This document shows positions 43,809 through 55,300 of a stretch of DNA of 58,203 bases, piece after piece. Position 1 is the stretch's first letter, and every line of letters starts with the position of its first letter. A program made the translations under genes and the position numbers. The notes beneath the pieces are model-generated. The model saw nothing but the letters and a program-made list of their open reading frames with translations, made no database searches and had not been told where the DNA came from. The stretch is from Terriglobales bacterium (lineage in GTDB: Bacteria; Acidobacteriota; Terriglobia; Terriglobales; Acidobacteriaceae). The stretch lies in NCBI GenBank assembly GCA_035624455.1, contig DASPRM010000036.1, positions 1 to 58,203 of the forward strand, read 5' to 3'.

Positions 43809-44546
43809 CTAGCTGACAAACTCGACGACGCCGGTCGCCAGATCGTACATCGCGCCTGTGATCTTGATGCTCCCTTTTCTCTCCATCTCCTCCAGGATTG
43901 GACTACGCTTGCGGATTTCGGCCAGACCCAGCATGACATTGGATCGTGCGACTGCATTGACATAGCTCGCATTCTTGCTGGACTTTTCGCCATCAAACTT
44001 GGTCGCCGGTATGGCCGGCTTGATCCGCGCCAACAGCCCGGTGAGGTTACCCAACACGACGTCGTCGATCGCGCCCTTAATCGCTCCACAAGCTGTATGC
44101 CCTAATACCAGCACCACCTTAGCGCCGGAAACTGCACAGCCAAATTCCATGCTGCCGAGCATGTCATCGTTCACCACGTTTCCTGCCACCCTGCCGGTAA
44201 AGGTATCGCCGATCCCAGCGTCGAATACGATCTCGACTGGCACTCGGGAATCGAGGCACCCGAGCACGACTGCCGCCGGATATTGCCCCGCGGCGCTTGA
44301 TCGTTTCTCCGCCAGGTAATCCCGAGAAGCCATCTTTCCGGTGCGGAAGCGCTCGTTCCCCTTTTTCAGTTCATCAAGAACCTGCGCCGGGGTCATGCTG
44401 TCACGTTGCTCTTTCGTCAAAGAATCCCTCATGCTGGGCGCGAACTGCGCCGGTAATAAAGACAGGGCAGGACTGAGGAAACAAGTACCAAGCCCCACAC
44501 TGAGAAAGCTGCGACGATCCAGAGAGCCGTCACAGGTTCTTGTCAT
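43809..44546 (-). CDS. Beta-class carbonic anhydrase, Tat-exported
   Basis: 245 residues from the ATG at 44546 (GGAGG 7 nt upstream). The N-terminus is a twin-arginine signal (DRRSFLSVGLGTCFLSPALSLL). Zinc ligands and active site: C-x-D-S-R in GCLDSRVP and H-x2-C in GHTACGAI, so it should be active in CO2/bicarbonate conversion in the periplasm. It follows the small ORF at 44585-44740 by 38 bp on the same strand. Confidence 0.93.
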   Translation of the reverse strand: MTRTCDGSLDRRSFLSVGLGTCFLSPALSLLPAQFAPSMRDSLTKEQRDSMTPAQVLDELKKGNERFRTGKMASRDYLAEKRSSAAGQYPAAVVLGCLDSRVPVEIVFDAGIGDTFTGRVAGNVVNDDMLGSMEFGCAVSGAKVVLVLGHTACGAIKGAIDDVVLGNLTGLLARIKPAIPATKFDGEKSSKNASYVNAVARSNVMLGLAEIRKRSPILEEMERKGSIKITGAMYDLATGVVEFVS

Positions 44547-44584
44547 ATTTTTCCTCCATGGCCTTACGAGTATGAAGAGACCAG

Positions 44585-44740
44585 TCAGAGCCAAGCAGAA
44601 AATGGGCTGACGGTTCTCGCACGTCGTCCTTCTGGCGTTTGGATGGCGCACGATTTCGTTCCTCGATCTAGTGATCCCCTAAGGGCAGCGAGGATACCAC
44701 AGATGAAAACGAAGTCGGGTGTCAGTTGAGTTGGCGCCAT
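44585..44740 (-). CDS. Possible small leader ORF upstream of carbonic anhydrase (51 aa)
   Basis: An ATG at 44740 is preceded by GGGAGG at 7 nt, a near-perfect ribosome site, and the frame runs 51 codons to a TGA 38 bp before the carbonic anhydrase start. The product begins MAPTQLTPDFVFICGILAAL and becomes basic. I do not recognise it; it might be a regulatory upstream ORF or chance. Confidence 0.3.
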   Translation of the reverse strand: MAPTQLTPDFVFICGILAALRGSLDRGTKSCAIQTPEGRRARTVSPFSAWL

Positions 44741-45986: not shown

Positions 45987-46115
45987 AGCGGGGAAAACAA
46001 CATCTCCAGGCAGATTAGAAGGATCGGCGCCCATTCGCCGGTCCCGGTGTGGGAATGCACTGGACTGCACATAGATCCGGGTCTGAGGTGCAAGCAAGCG
46101 CCGAAGACGAGTTTT

Positions 46116-47948
46116 CTACTGCAGCGCCGACTGCGTCAGCTTCACGGCACAGTAAGGAGTAGCGGCTCCCCCGCTTACTTTGCAGTTTCCTCCGTTCACC
46201 GAGCCGCCTACCAGGGTGGAAAAGTAGATGTTGGTACCGCCGTTGGTCACCTGATTATCCACCACAATGCCGCTGGTTCCTCCCAAGGCGCGCGGGGCGG
46301 CAACGCAACTCGAAGTCGGGGGATTGCTGCAGTTGGGCTGGGACGCCGTCCCAGTAAGAGTCGAACTCTCCAGAAAGCCGTCATTGACGCTGCCCACGCC
46401 AAAAAACATGCGGTCGGTGGTGCCGTTGTAGAACTCAGTCAAAGGTGAGCACTCATCTCCCACGCTATTGTTGACCACCCAGGTGGTTGCCGTGGACGCA
46501 GGCTTCTGCAAGGTGTGGTTCACGAAGCTATACATGTACATCTTGGGATTCGAGGGGATCAGCGGATTTCCCGTCGTACCTGATACAAAACCGCAGCCCA
46601 GGATATGCCCAGCAGTAGTTCCGCCGATCCAGAATTGATTGTCGAAGGCGCCGGCGTGGACGTTGCCGGTGGTGCAGTCGCCGGCGCCGCTGGCCGAGCC
46701 CAGGTCGACCGTATTGGAATTACTGGCTGTAAAGCTGGAGGTAAAGTTAGCGGGAAGCTGAGTGATGGCTCCTCCGGTGCCATTCACGTTGCTGCAGCCA
46801 GTGAAGGCAAATACCTGGTCAACAGCGGGATTGGCCGAATCATTGACCACAATCGGAGCGTCGATAACGCCCGTTCCCGCACCATGACCTACCCACCCGA
46901 TCGCGACGCGTGCCGACGTTCCGTGGTGGGGACTGGTCAGGCTGATAGCGTACAAATAGCCATTGCCGTCTCCCATGAAGATGCGGTCGGCATTGCTGTC
47001 CACAATTGCATCGGTTACCACTTTGCTCGCAAGGCCGTTGGCTACCACTGTCACCGGCCAATTGCTGTCATTGACCACCTGGGGCTGGCCGCCTCCGAAC
47101 ACCGGCGTGATCTTGTATAGCTTGCCGTCATCCGTTCCCACGTAAGCCGTGTCCGTGCTGTAGTCGATATAGGGCGAGGAATCTGTATTCGCGCCAGTCG
47201 AGATCTGCACCGTCGTCATGCAGTTGGGCGCTGTAGGTGTAGTGCACGACGATGGAGTTGATGGCGATAACACTGTTCCCGTCTGCAAGGGCGGAGCTGG
47301 AATCGGATTGGGCAGCACCAGGACGTGGAAGAAAGATCCCAGGGTTGCGCTCTCCACGAATGCCACCTTGGTGCCGTCGACAGAAATGGTAGGTGAGGTG
47401 CGAATGTGGCCGCCACCCTGGGTGAAAGTGTTATAGGCAAACGCGACCCAGGGGCTGCCGCTGTTGCAGGGCGGCGATTTTTCCGTGTACAGGTTGTTGA
47501 TGCCCACCAGATTCGCCTGGCCCGAAGGTGCATTTAGCCCAAAAACTACGTAGTCACCATTACAATCCTGCGCGGTCACATCGAATCTGTACTTTGCGGG
47601 ATACTGGTTGGCGGGTACGAAACCGTTTTCCAGCGAGACTGCCCAATCAATCCTGACGGCGTTCTTGCTGGAGATGACTGGCGCGCCGGCTTCATCAGCC
47701 ATCTGGCGCCTGACCATGTTGTAAACATGGCGAGGTTCTTTCCACCCAGCTGCAATCGCTTCGCTGGCGAGGTTGCCGGTCATGACTACGTGGCGCGAAC
47801 TCCAGTCCTCAGGAAATCCGAGGTGATGCGCGTGCTCCGCGGACTCATCGTCGACCCTGACATGCCCCGGGCCTGGCTGCCCCATGGCGGTAGATCCCAG
47901 CAATATAAGCAAGCTGAGCAGGCCGATACTTCCCCTAATTAGCTTCAT
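46116..47948 (-). CDS. Secreted beta-propeller-like hypothetical protein
   Basis: 610 residues from the ATG at 47948 (GAGG upstream). A signal peptide (about 1-25, ending AMGQPG) is followed by a His-rich segment and a large domain with propeller-type repeats (PYIDYSTDTAYVGTDDGKLYKITPVFGGG, ADRIFMGDGNGYLYAISL, GTTDRMFFGVGSVNDGFLE). Nine or more cysteines may form disulfides. It lies 100 bp downstream of, and on the same strand as, the candidate peptide precursor at 48049-48225, so co-transcription is possible. Function unknown. Confidence 0.8.
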   Translation of the reverse strand: MKLIRGSIGLLSLLILLGSTAMGQPGPGHVRVDDESAEHAHHLGFPEDWSSRHVVMTGNLASEAIAAGWKEPRHVYNMVRRQMADEAGAPVISSKNAVRIDWAVSLENGFVPANQYPAKYRFDVTAQDCNGDYVVFGLNAPSGQANLVGINNLYTEKSPPCNSGSPWVAFAYNTFTQGGGHIRTSPTISVDGTKVAFVESATLGSFFHVLVLPNPIPAPPLQTGTVLSPSTPSSCTTPTAPNCMTTVQISTGANTDSSPYIDYSTDTAYVGTDDGKLYKITPVFGGGQPQVVNDSNWPVTVVANGLASKVVTDAIVDSNADRIFMGDGNGYLYAISLTSPHHGTSARVAIGWVGHGAGTGVIDAPIVVNDSANPAVDQVFAFTGCSNVNGTGGAITQLPANFTSSFTASNSNTVDLGSASGAGDCTTGNVHAGAFDNQFWIGGTTAGHILGCGFVSGTTGNPLIPSNPKMYMYSFVNHTLQKPASTATTWVVNNSVGDECSPLTEFYNGTTDRMFFGVGSVNDGFLESSTLTGTASQPNCSNPPTSSCVAAPRALGGTSGIVVDNQVTNGGTNIYFSTLVGGSVNGGNCKVSGGAATPYCAVKLTQSALQ

Positions 47949-48048
47949 TGCCTGTAACCTCACCGAACTTCTGACTCATGAACACAGCCTCCCAATTTTG
48001 GGACCGCTTTGGCGCGGAGCCCAATTTATGGACATCGGCGCAGCCGTG

Positions 48049-48225
48049 CTATGAAGTCTTGCGATTGAAATGACAGTGCTTTTGGGTGGCATTAATTTTC
48101 CCGCAGGCCAAGGCCGTCGTTTCAAACACGCGCTCGAAGCGGAATTCCGGCTTGTGATAAGGCTTTCGAGCTGGCTTAGGATCCCCGGCGGGCTCTTGAT
48201 CGTCGCCTCTCTCGGCGTCACTCAT
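48049..48225 (-). CDS. Candidate RiPP precursor peptide (58 aa)
   Basis: A short ORF, easily missed because of its size. The ATG at 48225 has GGGAGGG upstream (12 nt, somewhat far). The first 20 residues are hydrophilic and acidic, as in leader peptides. Residues 21-30 (KPYHKPEFRF) carry the Y-x-x-P-x-[LF] motif that PqqD-type recognition elements bind in lasso-peptide and related leaders. The tail (about 37-58, TALACGKINATQKHCHFNR, then KTS) has Cys41, Cys51, two His and several Thr/Asn, a plausible modified core. The maturation operon (S26 peptidase, HPr-kinase-like, PqqD-like, radical SAM) begins 196 bp away, divergently. The role is inferred; the ORF and motif are directly seen. Confidence 0.7.
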   Translation of the reverse strand: MSDAERGDDQEPAGDPKPARKPYHKPEFRFERVFETTALACGKINATQKHCHFNRKTS

Positions 48226-48421
48226 GCAGCACTCGCACCCTCCCGAGACATTCTAAGGCTGCTTTTTCACGCTAGGACCCTCAGTGCTGGAAAGCATATG
48301 TACTAAGGGTGTACGCCAGGCTCAGAAAGACCGTATCAGGGGAGTTATTCCAAGCTCACTTTGAGCCTCACATACTATTCGAGATTGGCCGGCAAATCGA
48401 TCCGTCCGCAACGCCCAAAAG
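48226..48421. promoter_or_regulatory. Divergent promoter region, precursor / maturation operon
   Basis: 196 bp separate the precursor candidate (minus) from the peptidase gene (plus), so both promoters should lie here. A GTAC-N7-GTAC dyad (about 48299-48313) is present. No clear -35/-10 pair was identified by eye. Confidence 0.4.
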
Positions 48422-48913
48422 ATGTGTGCCAGTGCGCAATCTTCCGCCGCAACAAAAACCGAGCTGATCCGGCAGGCTCTTGTGGCGGGTAGGGTGATTC
48501 AGCTCCGGCTCAGCGGCACCAGCATGATGCCCACGCTCTGGCCCGGCGACCTGGTTTGGGTAAAGCCCGTCAAAGTGGAGAAACTTGCTCCTGGCGATGT
48601 GATTCTCTTTTTGCGCGAGAATCGCATTATGGCTCATCGCATCGTAGGAATGGATGCGCCTGCCGGTGAGCTTGTGATCCGTACGCGAGGCGATACTCTC
48701 CCAGCGGGCGATCTGCCGGTGCGTGGCTCAGAGGTTTTGGGGCTGGTAACTGCAGCTCAACGCTTTGGAACTGGATGGGCGATCTCTCGTACTCCGCGAC
48801 TCGCTTCTCGGATTCTTTCACGGATTGTGCGGCGCTCGGACCGCTTTCGCCACCTGCTTTTCACCCTGAACCTTAAGCTCTCTCACAATACCCGTGCCCG
48901 GAGGGCCTGGTGA
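48422..48913 (+). CDS. S26-family peptidase (signal-peptidase-like), soluble, SipW-type
   Basis: 163 residues. The catalytic Ser (S34) is in LSGTSMMPTLWPGD, and the second catalytic residue is His (H72 in IMAHRIVG), as in SipW/ER-type signal peptidases, rather than Lys. There is no N-terminal membrane anchor, unlike true leader peptidases, so the protein may be cytoplasmic. First gene of the candidate peptide-maturation operon; removal of a leader peptide is the likely job. The stop overlaps the next gene's GTG start. Ribosome site is weak. Confidence 0.87.
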   Translation: MCASAQSSAATKTELIRQALVAGRVIQLRLSGTSMMPTLWPGDLVWVKPVKVEKLAPGDVILFLRENRIMAHRIVGMDAPAGELVIRTRGDTLPAGDLPVRGSEVLGLVTAAQRFGTGWAISRTPRLASRILSRIVRRSDRFRHLLFTLNLKLSHNTRARRAW

Positions 48914-49734
48914 GTGCCGTTCTGGCATCCGTGTCTGCCGCAGCTGACGCGATCGCAATCAACATCGGCGGCATCGTCGGTACCGTACACACGGAGAGTC
49001 CTTTCTTTCGGCAGATGCTGCTACGCCACTATCACGATTTCATTTCTCTTCCTGCAAAACCTAGCTTCGAATTGGAGGTGGAGTTGCTGGAGTTTCCCGA
49101 TAACAGCGACTTGGATGCTGATCTGGAGGTTCGCTTCACGGGCGGGTGCTGGCATCTGCGCCGGGGAGACTTCAGCGTCGTCTGGGATCCGACGTCAGGC
49201 AGGGGGAAGGTTCGCCAGACGGCGAATCCTTATTCCATCGACACTGTGTTGCGCATTTTGCATAGCTTGCTGCTTGTGGGTCAGCGTGGATTTCTCCTCC
49301 ATGCTGCCAGCGCCATTCGCGGCGGGCGCGCTTACGTTTTCACCGGGCTTTCCGGCGCCGGCAAGACGACAATTTCACGACTGGCCCCGCCTCATGTCAC
49401 GCTGCTCAGCGATGAAGTTTCATATTTGCGTCCACTGGAAGGCGCCTTCCGGGCCTTTGGCACGCCTTTCTCCGGCGAGCTTCGCCAGGCTGGAAAGAAT
49501 TGTGCCGCACCCGTGGCGGCCATCTATCTTCTGGATAAAGGACCCCAGAATTGTGTCAGTCCGGTAACTCCTGCTGAAGCGCTGCATGCCCTGATGCGCA
49601 ACATTCTCTTCTTTGCAGATTCGGCGAATCTCGCGGGCTCGGTTTTTCAAATTGCGTGCGATTTTGTGATGCAGGTTCCGGTCAAGCGGCTCACGTTTGT
49701 CCCCGATGAACATGTCTGGGAAATGATTGGCTGA
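48910..49734 (+). CDS. HPr-kinase-like (HprK-type P-loop) protein
   Basis: 274 residues from a GTG at 48910 (GGAGGG just upstream). The C-terminal half has the HprK-like fold: FLLHAASAIRGGRAYVFTGLSGAGKTT (P-loop, G146-T154) and LLSDEVSYL (Walker-B-like Asp/Glu). Such proteins recur with PqqD and peptide-modifying genes (for example in lasso-peptide-type clusters) where they may phosphorylate a peptide or protein. The N-terminal half (about 1-115) is unassigned. Second gene of the maturation operon. Confidence 0.87.
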   Translation: MSAVLASVSAAADAIAINIGGIVGTVHTESPFFRQMLLRHYHDFISLPAKPSFELEVELLEFPDNSDLDADLEVRFTGGCWHLRRGDFSVVWDPTSGRGKVRQTANPYSIDTVLRILHSLLLVGQRGFLLHAASAIRGGRAYVFTGLSGAGKTTISRLAPPHVTLLSDEVSYLRPLEGAFRAFGTPFSGELRQAGKNCAAPVAAIYLLDKGPQNCVSPVTPAEALHALMRNILFFADSANLAGSVFQIACDFVMQVPVKRLTFVPDEHVWEMIG

Positions 49735-49745
49735 GGCCAGAGTTC

Positions 49746-50072
49746 ATGGAGAACAGGCAAATCAAGTATGTGGCGCGCAGCACGGCGATTGCTGCGCGCA
49801 TGCTGGACGGCGAAATGATGATCATGTCTCCCGTAGACTCCACCTTCTTTAGCCTGAACGAAGTTGCATCTGCGATTTGGCAGGCCGCCGATGGACAGAC
49901 TCTACTCGCTGATATCGTGGACAGCAGAATCTGTTCAGCTTTCGGGATCGATCGCGAAACTGCCCTGCGCGATGCCGAAGAGTTTGTGGAGCAGCTCGCG
50001 AAGCATGGAATTCTGCGGATCTGCACCACTCCGGTCGCGAATACACCCCCATCGGGGGTATTCCATCGATGA
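49746..50072 (+). CDS. PqqD-like RiPP recognition protein
   Basis: 108 residues. The PqqD/RRE winged-helix pattern is clear: IMSPVDSTFFSLNEVASAIWQAADGQTLLADIVDSRI, then a helical end (ALRDAEEFVEQLAKHGIL). These domains bind leader peptides and hand them to a radical SAM enzyme. It lies between the HprK-like gene and the radical SAM gene, whose ATG overlaps its stop (ATGA). The end of the ORF holds a hairpin that may mask the next gene's ribosome site. Confidence 0.9.
   Translation: MENRQIKYVARSTAIAARMLDGEMMIMSPVDSTFFSLNEVASAIWQAADGQTLLADIVDSRICSAFGIDRETALRDAEEFVEQLAKHGILRICTTPVANTPPSGVFHR
50045..50059 (+). promoter_or_regulatory. Hairpin over the radical SAM gene's ribosome site
   Basis: ACCCCC-ATC-GGGGGT is a perfect 6-bp stem. 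Its right arm, GGGGGT, lies 9 nt before the radical SAM ATG at 50069 and would be its Shine-Dalgarno sequence, so folding could make synthesis of the enzyme depend on ribosomes completing the PqqD-like ORF. Confidence 0.45.
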
Positions 50073-51181
50073 GTCTGCTGGAGGAAATCAACCAGCGGGC
50101 GATTGATCTTCGCGTGCCGCTCTCCGTCCAGCTTGATGTCACCTACCGCTGCAACGAGCGTTGCATACACTGCTATCTCGATCACCATGACCGCGGCGAA
50201 ATGACCACGGACGAGATCATCGGAGTGCTGGACCAACTCGCCGACGCCGGGACTTTCTTTCTAACTTTCAGTGGCGGCGAAGTTTTTTTGCGCCGCGACT
50301 TTCTGAAGCTGGTAGAGCATGCCCGTCAGCTGCTTTTCAATGTCAAGATCAAAACCAATGCAGTCCTCATCCGCGAAGCGCAAGCGGAGCAAATCCGGGA
50401 GCTGGGAGTGGATCGGGTACAGATCAGCGTCTATTCTCATCGCCCCGAAGTTCACGATGCCATAACCCACCTGCCCGGATCTCTAGAGCGCACTCTAAGA
50501 GGAGTACGCTTGCTGACGGCCCATGGAGTCCGCGTCTCAATCGCCAACGTGCTCATGAATCGGAATATAGGCGATCAGGCCGGGGTCCAGGAGCTGGCGC
50601 GTGAACTCGGCGTCCACTACACAGTTGACCCGACCATTACTCCGCATATGGATGGCGACCGCACCATCCTGAGTCTGCGCATTCCCAGCACGGATCTCGA
50701 GCGCATCCTGCATGACGAAACCCTGGTGGGCGACGTCCAGGAATTCTGTGCACCGCCTGCGCCGGTTGGAGCGGACATCCTGGACGGTTATCCTTGCAGC
50801 GCCGGCCACACATTCGCTTACATCTCGCCGTATGCTGAGGTCTTTCCCTGCGTGCAGTTCCCGCTCCCCTGCGGCAACCTTCGTCAGCAAAGATTCGCCG
50901 ACATTTGGAAGGCCTCCCAGGCATTGAACCAGGTGCGATCCATTCGCGCACGCGATCTCGAGGTCTGCTCCGAATGCTCCCACGTTGGAACCTGCACTCG
51001 CTGTCCGGGATTGGCCTACATGGAAGGCAATATGCGCGGACCGTCATCGGCGGACTGTGAAAAATCCTGGCTGAGAACTGGCATTCGTTCCGCCAACATG
51101 ATTCGCAAGACTGAATTCAGGCCCTCCGAGTTGGTTCAGATCCGATGCGCCTCGCCGCAGGAATCGTCCTTGGCCTCGTGA
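50069..51181 (+). CDS. Radical SAM/SPASM peptide-modifying enzyme
   Basis: 370 residues. The radical SAM cluster motif C-x3-C-x2-C is in YRCNERCIHCYLD (C28, C32, C35), followed by the GGE motif (FSGGEVFLR). The C-terminal SPASM region is Cys-rich (CSAGHTFAYISPYAEVFPC, VCSECSHVGTCTRCPG, ADCEKSW), so it carries auxiliary Fe-S clusters, as in PqqE, sactisynthases and mycofactocin MftC. With a PqqD-like partner and a Y-x-x-P-x-F precursor candidate nearby, it most likely forms a C-S or C-C cross-link on a peptide. Last gene of the operon; an intrinsic terminator follows. Confidence 0.95.
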   Translation: MSLLEEINQRAIDLRVPLSVQLDVTYRCNERCIHCYLDHHDRGEMTTDEIIGVLDQLADAGTFFLTFSGGEVFLRRDFLKLVEHARQLLFNVKIKTNAVLIREAQAEQIRELGVDRVQISVYSHRPEVHDAITHLPGSLERTLRGVRLLTAHGVRVSIANVLMNRNIGDQAGVQELARELGVHYTVDPTITPHMDGDRTILSLRIPSTDLERILHDETLVGDVQEFCAPPAPVGADILDGYPCSAGHTFAYISPYAEVFPCVQFPLPCGNLRQQRFADIWKASQALNQVRSIRARDLEVCSECSHVGTCTRCPGLAYMEGNMRGPSSADCEKSWLRTGIRSANMIRKTEFRPSELVQIRCASPQESSLAS

Positions 51182-51189
51182 GAAGCCTT

Positions 51190-51209
51190 GCCAGTTTGGA
51201 CTGGCTTTT
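51190..51209 (+). terminator. Intrinsic terminator of the radical SAM operon
   Basis: GCCAGT-TTGG-ACTGGC forms a perfect 6-bp stem with a 4-base loop directly followed by TTTT, 9 bp after the radical SAM stop codon. Flanking AAGCC/GGCTT can lengthen the stem. Confidence 0.75.
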
Positions 51210-51285
51210 CCCCAAGACTGCGCGTATACATTACGGCCTCCAGGAAAATCGGTAATCCTGACTATCTTTCCGAAGGGAGAGGATT

Positions 51286-52068
51286 ATGCACAGGAAATTG
51301 GGAAGAGAGTTCGCAGTAGTGTGCCTGCTCGCGATGGCTGCCCTGTGGGCACTACCCGCATGCGCGCAGACCTCAGAAGTCAAAGAAAAACCGCCGATGT
51401 ACTCCTATGTGGGGAATTGGAAGATTCCCCGCGCGCAGTGGGCCGACATGGAAAAGAACAACGCCGCTGATCAGAAAATCCTCGACGCGGCGCTCGCCAA
51501 AGGCACCATCGTGGCCTACGGTAACGATGTGACTCTGGTTCACCAACCGGAAGGTGAAACTCACGACGATTGGTGGTCGGCCATGTCCATGGCGGCCATA
51601 CTCAATGTGCTGGAGCAGTTTTACCAGTCCGGTGGCGCCACTACTCCGGTCCTGGGCAGTGCTACAAAACATTGGGACAGCCTTTACGTCAGCCGGTATT
51701 ACAACTGGCATGCCGGATCATTCAAGAACGCCTACACTCACGTTGGCACCTATAAATTGAAAGCCGACGCGCCCGACGACGCAGTAGACACCCTTAGCAA
51801 GAGCGCGATTGTGCCGCTACTGGAAAAACTGCTCGCCGACGGCACGCTCCATGAGTACGAAATCGATACCGAAGCCATCCACACCGAAGCGCCCGGCACG
51901 TTCGTGATTGTGTACATCGCAGCGAACGCGGAGGGACTGGATAAGGTCAATGCGGCGCTGCAAAATACGCTGAAAGCCAACCCGCTGACGGGTCCGGCAT
52001 TTGGTTCCATGGTGGACTTCAGCGCGCACCGCGATTCCCTGCTTCGCACCAACGCTACTTACAAATAG
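51286..52068 (+). CDS. Secreted hypothetical protein (260 aa)
   Basis: The ATG at 51286 follows GAAGGGAGAGG. A signal peptide (about 1-27, ending PACAQ) leads to an alpha/beta domain (YVGNWKIPRAQWADMEKNN..., KHWDSLYVSRYYNWHAGSFKNAYTHVGTYKLKADAPDD) that I do not recognise. It comes after the operon terminator, so it is probably a separate unit. Confidence 0.82.
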   Translation: MHRKLGREFAVVCLLAMAALWALPACAQTSEVKEKPPMYSYVGNWKIPRAQWADMEKNNAADQKILDAALAKGTIVAYGNDVTLVHQPEGETHDDWWSAMSMAAILNVLEQFYQSGGATTPVLGSATKHWDSLYVSRYYNWHAGSFKNAYTHVGTYKLKADAPDDAVDTLSKSAIVPLLEKLLADGTLHEYEIDTEAIHTEAPGTFVIVYIAANAEGLDKVNAALQNTLKANPLTGPAFGSMVDFSAHRDSLLRTNATYK

Positions 52069-52094
52069 TCACATTGACTTCCTGATCTGCGAGC

Positions 52095-52137
52095 GAGCGC
52101 CTGCTGGCGCCGCTCGTGGGCCAGGTTGCGCCCTGGC
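52095..52137. terminator. Two adjacent hairpins after the secreted protein gene
   Basis: GCGCC-TGCT-GGCGC (about 52098-52111, extendable with GAG/CTC) and GCCAGG-TTGCGC-CCTGGC (52120-52137) lie 30-70 bp after the stop. No T-run follows, so termination is only possible. Confidence 0.35.
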
Positions 52138-52305
52138 TGACCGCTGATTACTGAGTCCTGATTGCTTGCTCACTAACGCCGCTTCCCCTCCGTAATCTCG
52201 GTCTCCCGCGTTATGCCTTTCCCTTCGCGCCCGAGTGCGTCAGAATGAATACTGCACTCCCAAATTGCGGGCGCGCGCACATCGGGCCAAGAGGCGACTC
52301 TACCT

Positions 52306-55300
52306 ATGAGAAGTTTAATTTTGAGAAGTTCAGGCGTTGCCGTTTCTTTCACCGTCTTCTTCTTGGTTTTGCTGTTCTCGCTGAATGCTGCCTCAGCCCA
52401 GAACGCGTCAACACAGAATCCATCCGCCTCTAAGGACTCTTCAACCCCGGGCTCCCAAATCAAGGATCGGACGCAATCGCCCCCTGTGCCGAATAGCCTG
52501 CCGCAATCCAAGCCTCCGGCCACCGCCGAAGCCGAAAAGAAGCCGGATTTCTCTCAGGAGCCCTTCGTCATACAGGATCTGAAAAACCAGGTCTGGTTCG
52601 AGAGAAATGGTACCGGCCGGCGGGTGATGACCGCCGTCATTCTGGTCAATACCGAGCTGGGCGTGCGCCAACTCGGGCAATTGGTCTTCGGCTATAGCTC
52701 GGGCAATGAGAAGTTGGACGTCGATTACGTCCGCATACGCAAACCCGATGGCAGCGTCATCACCGCCGGCGCAGATGCCGTGCAGGACCTGGCGTCCGCC
52801 GTGGTGCATACGGCGCCCATGTATACCGACTTCCGCCAGAAGCACATTACTGTTCCGGGGCTGCGCCCTGGTGATCAGCTGGAATACAGCATCACCACGA
52901 CCATCGAAACCGCCCTGGCTCCCAATCAGTTCTGGTTCGAGTACGACTTCGACCGCGAAGTCATTGTGCTCAATGAAAAGCTGGAGATCACGGTTCCCAA
53001 AGACAAACCTATCAAGCTCAAGACCGAGCCCGGCCGCGATCCCGAGGTTCACGAATCCGGCGACTACCGCATTTATACCTGGGCCAATGCCAATCTGAAG
53101 CACAGGACACCGGAGGAAATCCGCGAAGACCGCCGCAAGCGGCGCCGCCACTTCCAGGAAGAGCAGCCTAGCGTGCAGCTCACCACTTTCCGCAGCTGGC
53201 AGGAGGTGGGCGCCTGGTACGCGCCTTTGCAGCGGGAGCGCATCCAGGCCACTCCTGTGCTTCGCGAAAAGACCGCCGAGCTGATCAAAGATAAGAAGAC
53301 CGACCTGGAAAAGATCAAAGCGATCTATGACTTCGTGGCACCGGAATATCGCTACGTGAGCCTTTCGTTTGGACTCGGCCGCTACCAGCCGCATGCCGCT
53401 GCCGACATCTTCACCAACCGCTACGGCGACTGCAAAGATAAGCACACGCTGCTGGAAGCGATGCTAGCCATCGCCGGCATTCATGCCGATCCCGTGCTCA
53501 TCAACTCGCGGCGCAGAATCGATCCCGACGTGCCTTCGCCGGGACAGTTCGACCACGTCATCACCCTGGTCACGCTGGGCAAACAGCGGGTCTGGCTCGA
53601 CAGCACCACCGAAGTAGCGCCCTTCCAGTTGCTCAGCTTCGGCCTGCGCCACAAGCAGGCGCTCTGGGTGCCGGCCGACGGCAACGGCACTCTCATCGAG
53701 ACGCCTTCCGATTCGCCCGTTCCCAATCAGCAGATCATCGATGTCGATGCGAAGATCGACGACATAGGCACGCTGATTGCCAACATGCACCTTACCTTGC
53801 GCGGCGACTCGGAGCTGATGTTCCGCTACGGCTTTCGCAGCCATCCGGAATCGGAGTGGAAAGACCTGGTGAAGTCCGCGGGCGGCATCAACGGCGAGAT
53901 TTCGAACTTGAACGTCGACAACCCCACCAACACGCAAAAGCCGTTTGAGCTTCGTTACACCGCTACCGTGGCGAATTATCTTGATTGGTCGAGCAAGAAC
54001 CCAACCTTTCCCGTGCCCCTACCCAAGCTGTCAGCTCCCGAAATCGAGGGCGACGAAGACGAGCAGCCTGAGCAGGTTGAACTCACAGGCGCTCCGATCG
54101 AGGCGGTGTACAGGTTGAAGCTGGAAGTGCCCGCACGTTACGCGGTCAGCATTCCTCTGCCTGCCCTGGTGTCGCGTGACTATGCCAGCTATGCCGTCAC
54201 TTACAAGAACGAGAAGAACGTCATCACCGCAGAGCGAACTCTGCGCCTGCTGCGGCGTGAGATTCCGCGCCAGCGGCTCGATGACTATGCCGCTTTTCGC
54301 CGCGTCATCGAATCCGACCAGGGACAGCTGGTCTCCCTCGAGACCTCACTGGCCGGCGCATCGCAACTGCCTCAAGGCCTCAAGGCGGATGACCTGATTG
54401 CCGCCGGCGCAGCGGCGATGCGCAACCGGAATTTCCCCGCTGCCATCGAGTCCTACAAACGTGCCACCGAGCTCGAGCCCAAGAACAAGAATGCCTGGAT
54501 CGGCTTGGGCACCGCCTATCTTTCCGAGCGCAAGACCGCCGACGCCATCGTCGCTTACCGAAAAGTTCTCGAGATGAATCCCTATGAGGCGCGAGTGAAC
54601 AATGGGATTGCCGCCGCTTACGCAGCCGATCACCGCTGGGATGAGTCAGCGGCTGCCTTTCGCAAGGAGCTGGAGATCAATCCCCTGGATTCTGCAGCCC
54701 ACACCGGACTGGCGCAGGTACTTCTCGAGCAGCGGAAATTTTCCGAGGCCCTGCCGGAACTCGAAAAAGCTGCATCCCTGGAGCCCCGCAATGCCGGAAC
54801 TCTCACCCAACTGGGCCGCACTTACCTGGAAGTTGGTCAGCAGGAAAAAGGTCTGGAGGCGCTGAACAAGGCGGTCGAGATCGCACCCAATTCCAGCACT
54901 TTTAACAACGTTGCCTATGAACTGGCACGCCACAAGATCGAACTGGATCGCGCGCAACAATATGCCGAGTCTGCCGTCAGCGAGGTCGCAGCTCAGCTAC
55001 GCAATGTGGATGTTTCCCGCCTCCGCCTGGAGGATTACTTCTATTCAGGCGCGATTGGTTCCTTCTGGGATACCCTGGGTTGGGTTCACTTCCAGCGCGG
55101 CAATCTGGAGCAGGCCGAAAAATACATCACTGCTGCCTGGTTGCTGACCGCGCACGGCGAGAGTGCCTATCACCTCGGCCGGATCTATGAAGCTGCCGGT
55201 CGCAAAGATGACGCCATCCGGCTTTACGCTTCCGCTCTGGCGGCAAAGAATTCTTATCCCGAAGCTCGCGAAGTCCTGACTGCCTTGCTCAAGAACCCTA

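Follow-up and report, generated by a model that had tools for sequence, protein, structure and literature searches.

HPr-kinase homologues from lasso peptide clusters mostly phosphorylate a C-terminal Ser (PMC8498205, PMC10368454), and the earlier lasso peptide phosphorylations were all on this residue (PMC10368454). The kinase BsfK is accelerated by a PqqD-like protein (PMC10368454), leaders containing W/Y/L-x-x-P are a known recognition type for PqqD-like domains (PMC12710340), and a nucleotidyltransferase attaches hexoses to a phosphorylated lasso peptide (review PMC8498205). We analysed a 58,203-bp stretch of a Terriglobales bacterium (contig DASPRM010000036.1, hereafter the window), in which a 58-codon open reading frame (ORF) lies beside genes for an S26 peptidase, an HPr-kinase-like (HPrK-like) protein, a PqqD-like protein and a radical SAM/SPASM enzyme. 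We are fairly confident that this gene set, taken as a whole, is best explained as a pathway for a ribosomally synthesized and post-translationally modified peptide (RiPP), which would yield a two-Cys product of about 18 residues, probably thioether-bridged and C-terminally phosphorylated, serving a secreted beta-propeller.

A precursor family linked to four maturation genes

The ORF is located on the minus strand (bp 48049–48225, 58 residues). Its features read as stated in the initial annotation, which had proposed it as the substrate: an acidic start, the segment KPYHKPEFRF, and a tail containing two Cys and two His. When this single sequence was searched against 396 genomes of the phylum, 8 strong matches came from 6 genomes, among them that of the window, and four further matches were weak; one of the weak matches, in genome G097, was rejected as a precursor, being a 261-codon frame without the motif. 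Among the flanking regions fetched, the order precursor, S26 peptidase, kinase, PqqD and radical SAM enzyme on one strand was found in five loci (L013, L014, L015, L017 and L019) and a precursor alone in two (L016 and L018), while three (L020, L021 and L023) were looser relatives. The 8 strong matches and the same four genes adjoining in five fetched loci argue that the ORF is not a chance frame. Membership of a known precursor family was not supported, the window peptide having no NCBIfam or Pfam match over the cut-off.

A pattern scan of named genomes yielded 79 related precursor loci, to be read as at least 79 because 80 out of 93 stretches that had been confirmed were retained. They carried the labels Acidobacteriota, Thermomonas and other Lysobacterales, Burkholderiales, Rhodoferax, Ramlibacter, Nevskia, Rokuibacteriota and others; single taxon labels may be binning errors, since most of the genomes are metagenome-assembled genomes (MAGs), and two Thermomonas strains (L073 and L076) have no MAG label. 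With models built from the first loci, all four maturation genes were detected in 52 of the 79 loci, one to three in 12 and none in 15, and the gene order given above was kept on one strand in 46 of the 48 loci passing a stricter score cut (exceptions L031 and L098). Homologues of the ORF thus stand beside related operons; their absence there had been named beforehand as what would refute the proposal. In the window, the coordinates of the four genes were confirmed, with 4-base overlaps between the peptidase and kinase genes and between the PqqD and radical SAM genes, and an 11-base gap between the kinase and PqqD genes. They diverge from the precursor across bp 48226–48421, a layout which is peculiar to this window; its precursor and propeller gene seem to have been inverted together.

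The anatomy of the precursor was counted over 81 sequences (80 from the 79 loci and that of the window). In the window, residues 1–40 form a leader with K-P-Y-x-K-P-x-F-R-x-E-x-V-F-E-T (within bp 48049–48225, minus strand), and residues 41–58 (CGKINATQKHCHFNRKTS, bp 48052–48105, minus strand), with two Cys and a C-terminal Ser, form the proposed core, as delimited by a predicted cleavage site. In a first alignment of 7 members, M1, K21, Y23, P26, E31, F34, A38, L39, C41, G42, K43, C51, K56 and S58 were invariant. Y-x-x-P was present in 80 of the 81 precursors, the remaining one having an unread base there, and exactly two core Cys in 79; a Glu three residues ahead of the Phe in F-[EV]-[TI] was present in 79, the core was 18 residues long in 67, and all 81 ended in Ser. 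The strongest precursor signals are A-L-x-C-G-K and the C-terminal Ser. The Ser rule, the invariant Cys after A-L-[A/S/T] and the secreted propeller had been missed earlier. A precursor with a conserved leader beside maturation enzymes, the general hallmark of a RiPP system, was therefore found, for which a modified product is predicted, and the 58-codon ORF is very likely the substrate.

The same association was seen at the genome level. Of 120 genomes from the family to which the window belongs, 26 had the precursor, 27 the kinase (>300 bits) and 28 the propeller; 26 genomes had both precursor and kinase (Fisher p 1.8e-25) and 23 had both precursor and propeller (p 8.1e-17), relatedness being ignored in both values, and a single genome (G402) had the kinase without the precursor. 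Of 30 precursor matches in this set, 21 lay within 2.5 kb of a kinase and 7 within 1 kb of a propeller match, 12 of 56 propeller rows (fragments) and 16 of 44 kinase rows (<300 bits) being left out of the distances. Genome searches for lone copies covered 14 of the 15 loci devoid of the four genes (L069 excluded), and a kinase was found elsewhere in 12 of the 14 genomes, each best match scoring at least 389.9 bits. In these 14 genomes, 11 of 33 precursor matches were within 2.5 kb of a kinase (2 of 15 kinase rows left out) and 15 within 1 kb of a propeller match, in tandem and opposed orientations, while 16 of 30 propeller matches were within 1 kb of a precursor. The two sets share at least one genome (G485 and G502 being the same by contig numbers and coordinates).

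Maturation enzymes and predicted modifications

The PqqD-type protein (bp 49746–50072, plus strand) matched Pfam PF05402 with 59.5 bits (cut-off 23.4), in agreement with the earlier assignment, as were the Pfam matches of the radical SAM gene. It may act as a leader-binding chaperone, or RiPP recognition element (RRE), holding the leader (Y-x-x-P ... E-x-V-F-E-T) and presenting the precursor to the three enzymes. The radical SAM/SPASM enzyme (bp 50069–51181, plus strand), for which cross-linking of the core is proposed, scored 89.1 bits with Radical_SAM (PF04055, cut-off 29.5) and 38.5 bits with SPASM (PF13186, cut-off 21.5), and its best solved matches were SkfB (88 bits) and PqqE. Enzyme alignments, including the window, comprised 18 kinase, 17 S26, 18 PqqD and 17 radical SAM sequences selected from complete loci; C28, C32, C35 and seven SPASM Cys were invariant in all 17 of the latter. 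The enzyme would most likely build one or two bridges from C41 and C51, with a thioether as the likeliest product because two Cys of the core are fixed and none of its aromatic residues is, although we place the thioether itself a little short of an even chance.

The HPrK-like gene (bp 48910–49734, plus strand) gave sub-cut-off matches only (ScmC 35 bits, cut-off 125; HprK_rel_A 22.5, cut-off 200; HprK_rel_B 24, cut-off 200), but the whole catalytic motif is there and is conserved. The motif H-G-G-G-K-S-D-D of BsfK and the lasso kinases, H148-G163-G166-G168-K169-S170-D186-D187 in BsfK (PMC10368454), was found as H131-G146-G149-G151-K152-T153-D168-E169, differing by a Thr in place of Ser and a Glu in place of the final Asp; H131, G146, G151, K152, D168 and E169 were invariant in 18 of 18 sequences, and G149 and T153 were conserved in at least 90%. 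The proposed substrate also ends in Ser, as do paeninodin-type substrates. The loci up to L142 together gave 99 distinct cores, 97 of them ending in Ser, the two exceptions being decayed copies which run on without the second Cys; by comparison, 94 of 1081 ORFs of at least 200 codons in these loci (all frames) end in Ser. Phosphorylation of the C-terminal Ser by this kinase is a prediction from sequence, which we consider likely. Three points speak against it: the kinase reached no curated cut-off, the second acidic residue of its motif is Glu instead of the Asp of BsfK, and BsfK itself targets Ser3 and not the C-terminus (PMC10368454), so that kinship of the kinase alone leaves the site unfixed. 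The kinase might then phosphorylate another residue or be regulatory, the final Ser being kept for, e.g., recognition by an exporter or the propeller, as would suit the action of BsfK on a core residue, the richness of the cores in Ser and Thr, and a distant kinase cluster (L150) whose candidate peptide ends in Asp. However, other core positions are less fixed than the final Ser, and 11 of 12 candidate peptides of distant kinase-plus-radical SAM clusters, picked by eye from a search without a final Ser/Thr filter, also end in Ser; we hold this alternative to be improbable.

The S26 gene (bp 48422–48913, plus strand) encodes a soluble S26/Sec11-like Ser-His peptidase, the proposed leader peptidase. 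It barely passed NCBIfam TIGR02228 (52.9 bits, cut-off 51.85); S34 and H72 were invariant in 17 of 17 sequences with no invariant Lys, and the nearest solved relatives were SEC11C and SEC11A. Signal peptidases follow a small-x-small rule; A-L-[A/S/T] before C41 fits this rule and is a plausible cleavage site for the S26 peptidase. In most copies the core starts at the invariant Cys after A-L-[A/S/T], and the residue ahead of this Cys was A, S or T in 93 of the 99 distinct cores; against this, A-L-[A/S/T]-C-G formed part of the scan pattern, so this stretch was selected for. Among 21 precursors found by profile, several of them from loci also returned by the pattern scan, A or S preceded the Cys in 19, the other two having R (L105) and H (L115) there, and Ser was the last residue throughout the 21. 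Removal of the leader, probably after A-L-[A/S/T], would leave a peptide of about 18 residues with an N-terminal Cys, and a cut before C41 is slightly more probable than not.

Further genes accompany part of the loci. A PF14907 nucleotidyltransferase (191.5 bits for the copy in L013) has a relative in 25 of the 52 complete loci and could, in this half or so, add to the phosphate. An ABC pair (ATP-binding cassette) was present in 6 of the 52, by which the peptide might be exported.

A degenerate or variant lasso pathway has in its favour that PqqD, an HPrK-like kinase, a Y-x-x-P leader, a C-terminal Ser and a nucleotidyltransferase are all known from lasso clusters. However, the PqqD protein scored below both lasso model cut-offs (NF033536, 32.8 bits, cut-off 80; NF033530, 23.5 bits, cut-off 70), no B2-type gene was found on the window's contig, and every complete locus has a radical SAM/SPASM gene. 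Lasso peptides have a Gly/Ala/Ser...Asp/Glu ring pattern, which the two-Cys core lacks. Lasso identity was therefore not supported, and we regard such a pathway as very remote. The initial annotation had argued likewise from missing genes. As to the peptidase this was upheld, the only B2-type (PF13471) match in the window's genome (G000) being on contig C141 (6851–7126, 78.4 bits) and the window being contig C36; as to the asparagine-synthetase-like cyclase it stands less firmly, none being present among seven window proteins scanned, with the rest of the window and genome not searched.

The secreted propeller and the surrounding sequence

Downstream of the precursor, separated by 85 bases and on the same minus strand while the four enzymes are divergent, lies a gene for a beta-propeller (bp 46116–47963; 615 codons from a GTG, 610 from an ATG at bp 47948). 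This gene belongs to the system; the interval first delimited (bp 48049–51209) rightly held the precursor and the enzymes and was too short, ending before it. The protein has an N-terminal hydrophobic stretch that looks like a signal peptide. At E up to 1 the window protein matched neither NCBIfam nor Pfam, and of two relatives scanned, one had no match and the other a Pfam match far below the cut-off (15.5 bits, cut-off 133). Profile search of solved structures returned designed Cake propellers and BamB-type proteins. An AlphaFold2 model made with 39 sequences (mean predicted local distance difference test score 78.6, predicted template modelling score 0.85) matched eight-bladed propellers, as judged by re-examination of Foldseek's list: Cake8 (Z 30.4, root mean square deviation 2.2, 320 residues aligned), a YxaL mutant (Z 27.1, 2.5, 338) and BamB (Z 25.8, 3.0, 335).

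A propeller gene was near the precursor (start within 6.5 kb or end within 3.5 kb) in 38 of the 52 complete loci, where it may flank the operon on one side or the other, and in 8 of the 15 lone loci by automatic call; L069 was added by inspection. Propellers outnumber kinases in several genomes. Taken together with the shared genomes and distances given above, a functional tie between peptide and propeller is highly probable. The peptide would act with the adjacently encoded propeller, most likely as a bound ligand, small subunit or cofactor; to narrow this to a subunit or cofactor is a tentative step. Several counts weigh against the system as read here. No propeller was nearby in 14 of the 52 complete loci; in the 120-genome set, 3 of 26 precursor genomes lacked the propeller, 5 of 28 propeller genomes lacked the precursor, and 7 of 30 precursor matches had no kinase and no propeller close by; among the 14 lone-precursor genomes this was so for 9 of 33 matches, and whole-genome search found no kinase in two (G504 and G509). 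Decayed precursor copies also occur (L011/L018 and a second copy in L036), and the propeller fold is uninformative on function.

An alternative is that the product is a secreted antimicrobial or signalling RiPP of the sactipeptide or ranthipeptide type, the propeller being not its client but a protein with an immunity, receptor or accessory role; this reading and ours coincide until the role of the product is considered. The two conserved Cys, a SPASM enzyme with SkfB as its best solved match, the ABC pair in a few complete loci and the variation of core residues between the fixed positions would agree with it, but core length and both ends are strongly fixed, and in several genomes the propeller is multi-copy and frequently unlinked; it also pairs with additional precursors. 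We consider this role unlikely and prefer that of a peptide serving the propeller.

The decayed precursor copies lie near position 7330 in L018 and near 7414 in L036, and in L092 (4890–8117) a propeller frame is seemingly frameshifted into the precursor frame. A natural propeller-precursor fusion was rejected for L092, as the propeller frame loses the family sequence near its end. The decayed copies and this frameshift suggest turnover of precursor-propeller pairs.

Regarding the remaining sequence, the intrinsic terminator annotated after the operon was partly confirmed: a hairpin (GCCAGT-TTGG-ACTGGC) followed by TTTT is visible by eye at bp 51190–51209 (plus strand), yet it is a weak candidate and was not called by the scan. 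A promoter scan found no sigma-70-like site in bp 48226–48421, and no Rfam match at the gathering threshold was found in bp 46000–53000. A 260-codon ORF after the operon (bp 51286–52068, plus strand) starts in the manner of a signal peptide and matched neither Pfam nor NCBIfam; a role for it in the system was dropped, since none of the eleven loci fetched first has a relative. Elsewhere in the window, an ORF at bp 43809–44651 (minus strand) was judged carbonic-anhydrase-like by eye from the ORF list.

The wider kinase family and comparison with known systems

Relatives of the kinase at E 1e-12 were found in 113 of 392 genomes of the phylum, not all of which need hold radical SAM clusters. Among 23 such loci examined (20 together with L020, L021 and L023), 16 had a radical SAM gene, and a small two-Cys peptide with Y/W-x-x-P near kinase and radical SAM genes was present in 12 (L143, L144, L145, L147, L150, L153, L155, L159, L160, L020, L021 and L023, often with PqqD), chosen by eye from 38 listed frames; no candidate of the same build was seen in L152, L154, L157 and L162. 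There was no propeller match in the 23 loci, suggesting that the propeller goes with the A-L-x-C-G-K branch, and the twelve clusters look like further subclasses without a propeller. In L020 (5649–11171), genes for a nucleotidyltransferase, kinase, PqqD, radical SAM enzyme and precursor are accompanied by a 472-codon ORF, resembling a B12-type radical SAM gene by eye, and S26. The HPrK-like kinase occurs in tandem copies within one cluster in L160 (1613–5635), and also in G070 (contig C36) and G081 (contig C116); the peptide of L160 matched an SSH-motif peptide model below its cut-off (13.3 bits, cut-off 45).

In the open-access literature searched, part of it as partial texts, no paper was found on an HPrK-like kinase and a radical SAM enzyme acting on one RiPP precursor, or on this gene set. 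This is a real and widespread RiPP system, which as a combination is new within that literature. The precursor system behind the earlier suggestion of a new class of cross-linked or phosphorylated peptide was supported, and the class itself we put forward tentatively: a C-terminally phosphorylated, radical SAM-bridged peptide of about 18 residues, which, instead of being an antibiotic, would be a small subunit or cofactor for secreted eight-bladed beta-propellers of a new family, with one maturase set serving several scattered precursor-propeller pairs, and which might form a branch of a wider kinase-plus-radical SAM superfamily across Acidobacteriota. If true, modified bacterial peptides would gain a new kind, one whose partner can be tested. 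The system ranges widely over the soil Acidobacteriota, a poorly understood group, and is open to testing because it also occurs in the two Thermomonas strains without a MAG label; the C-terminal Ser rule offers a sharp mining signature, and the linked propeller a concrete partner, which is wanting in many orphan RiPPs.

Among described systems, the phosphorylated lasso peptides (paeninodin, pseudomycoidin and BsfA clusters) share the HPrK-like kinase motif, the PqqD-type chaperone and the Y-x-x-P leader, as well as the C-terminal Ser (not in BsfA) and, in some clusters, the nucleotidyltransferase. In contrast, the window has a radical SAM/SPASM enzyme and an S26 peptidase in place of the lasso cyclase and B2 peptidase, and adds a two-Cys core and a secreted propeller partner. 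The SynChlorMet cassette (ScmC TIGR04249, ScmD TIGR04248 and ScmE TIGR04250), judging by model names, also combines HPrK-like, PqqD-like and radical SAM/SPASM proteins, but membership was not supported (ScmC 35 bits, cut-off 125; ScmD 26.5, cut-off 100; ScmE 101.4, cut-off 400). Scores were likewise below cut-off for the HPrK-related A system (TIGR04352 22.5, cut-off 200; TIGR04353 13.3, cut-off 35), GeoRSP (TIGR04302 24.2, cut-off 100; TIGR04303 112.6, cut-off 400), the mycofactocin maturase (TIGR03962 117.7, cut-off 265) and pyrroloquinoline quinone (PQQ) biosynthesis (PqqE 105.4, cut-off 381.35; PqqD 24, cut-off 46). Sactipeptide maturases include SkfB, the best solved relative of the radical SAM profile, whereas the SkfB model (70.6 bits, cut-off 300) and the AlbA-type model (84 bits, cut-off 850) were not reached, and the kinase, S26 peptidase and propeller are extra in the window.

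By analogy, the QHNDH gamma subunit QhpC (with QhpD, QhpE and QhpF) may be compared, in which radical SAM thioethers are formed on a small polypeptide, the leader is cut in the cytoplasm, export is by an ABC transporter, and the small polypeptide assembles with larger periplasmic subunits (PMC7876137). QHNDH differs in having no kinase, a different protease, and three thioethers plus a quinone. Mycofactocin and PQQ have in common with the window a small precursor, a PqqD-like chaperone, a SPASM enzyme and an often-unlinked client family which tracks the cluster across genomes (PMC3023750); the window differs in its kinase and S26 peptidase, in having a propeller as the proposed client, and in a core without a fixed aromatic residue. 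The arrangement described here, in which propellers pair with precursors and in several genomes outnumber kinases, resembles the paralogous-client pattern of mycofactocin and PQQ (PMC3023750).

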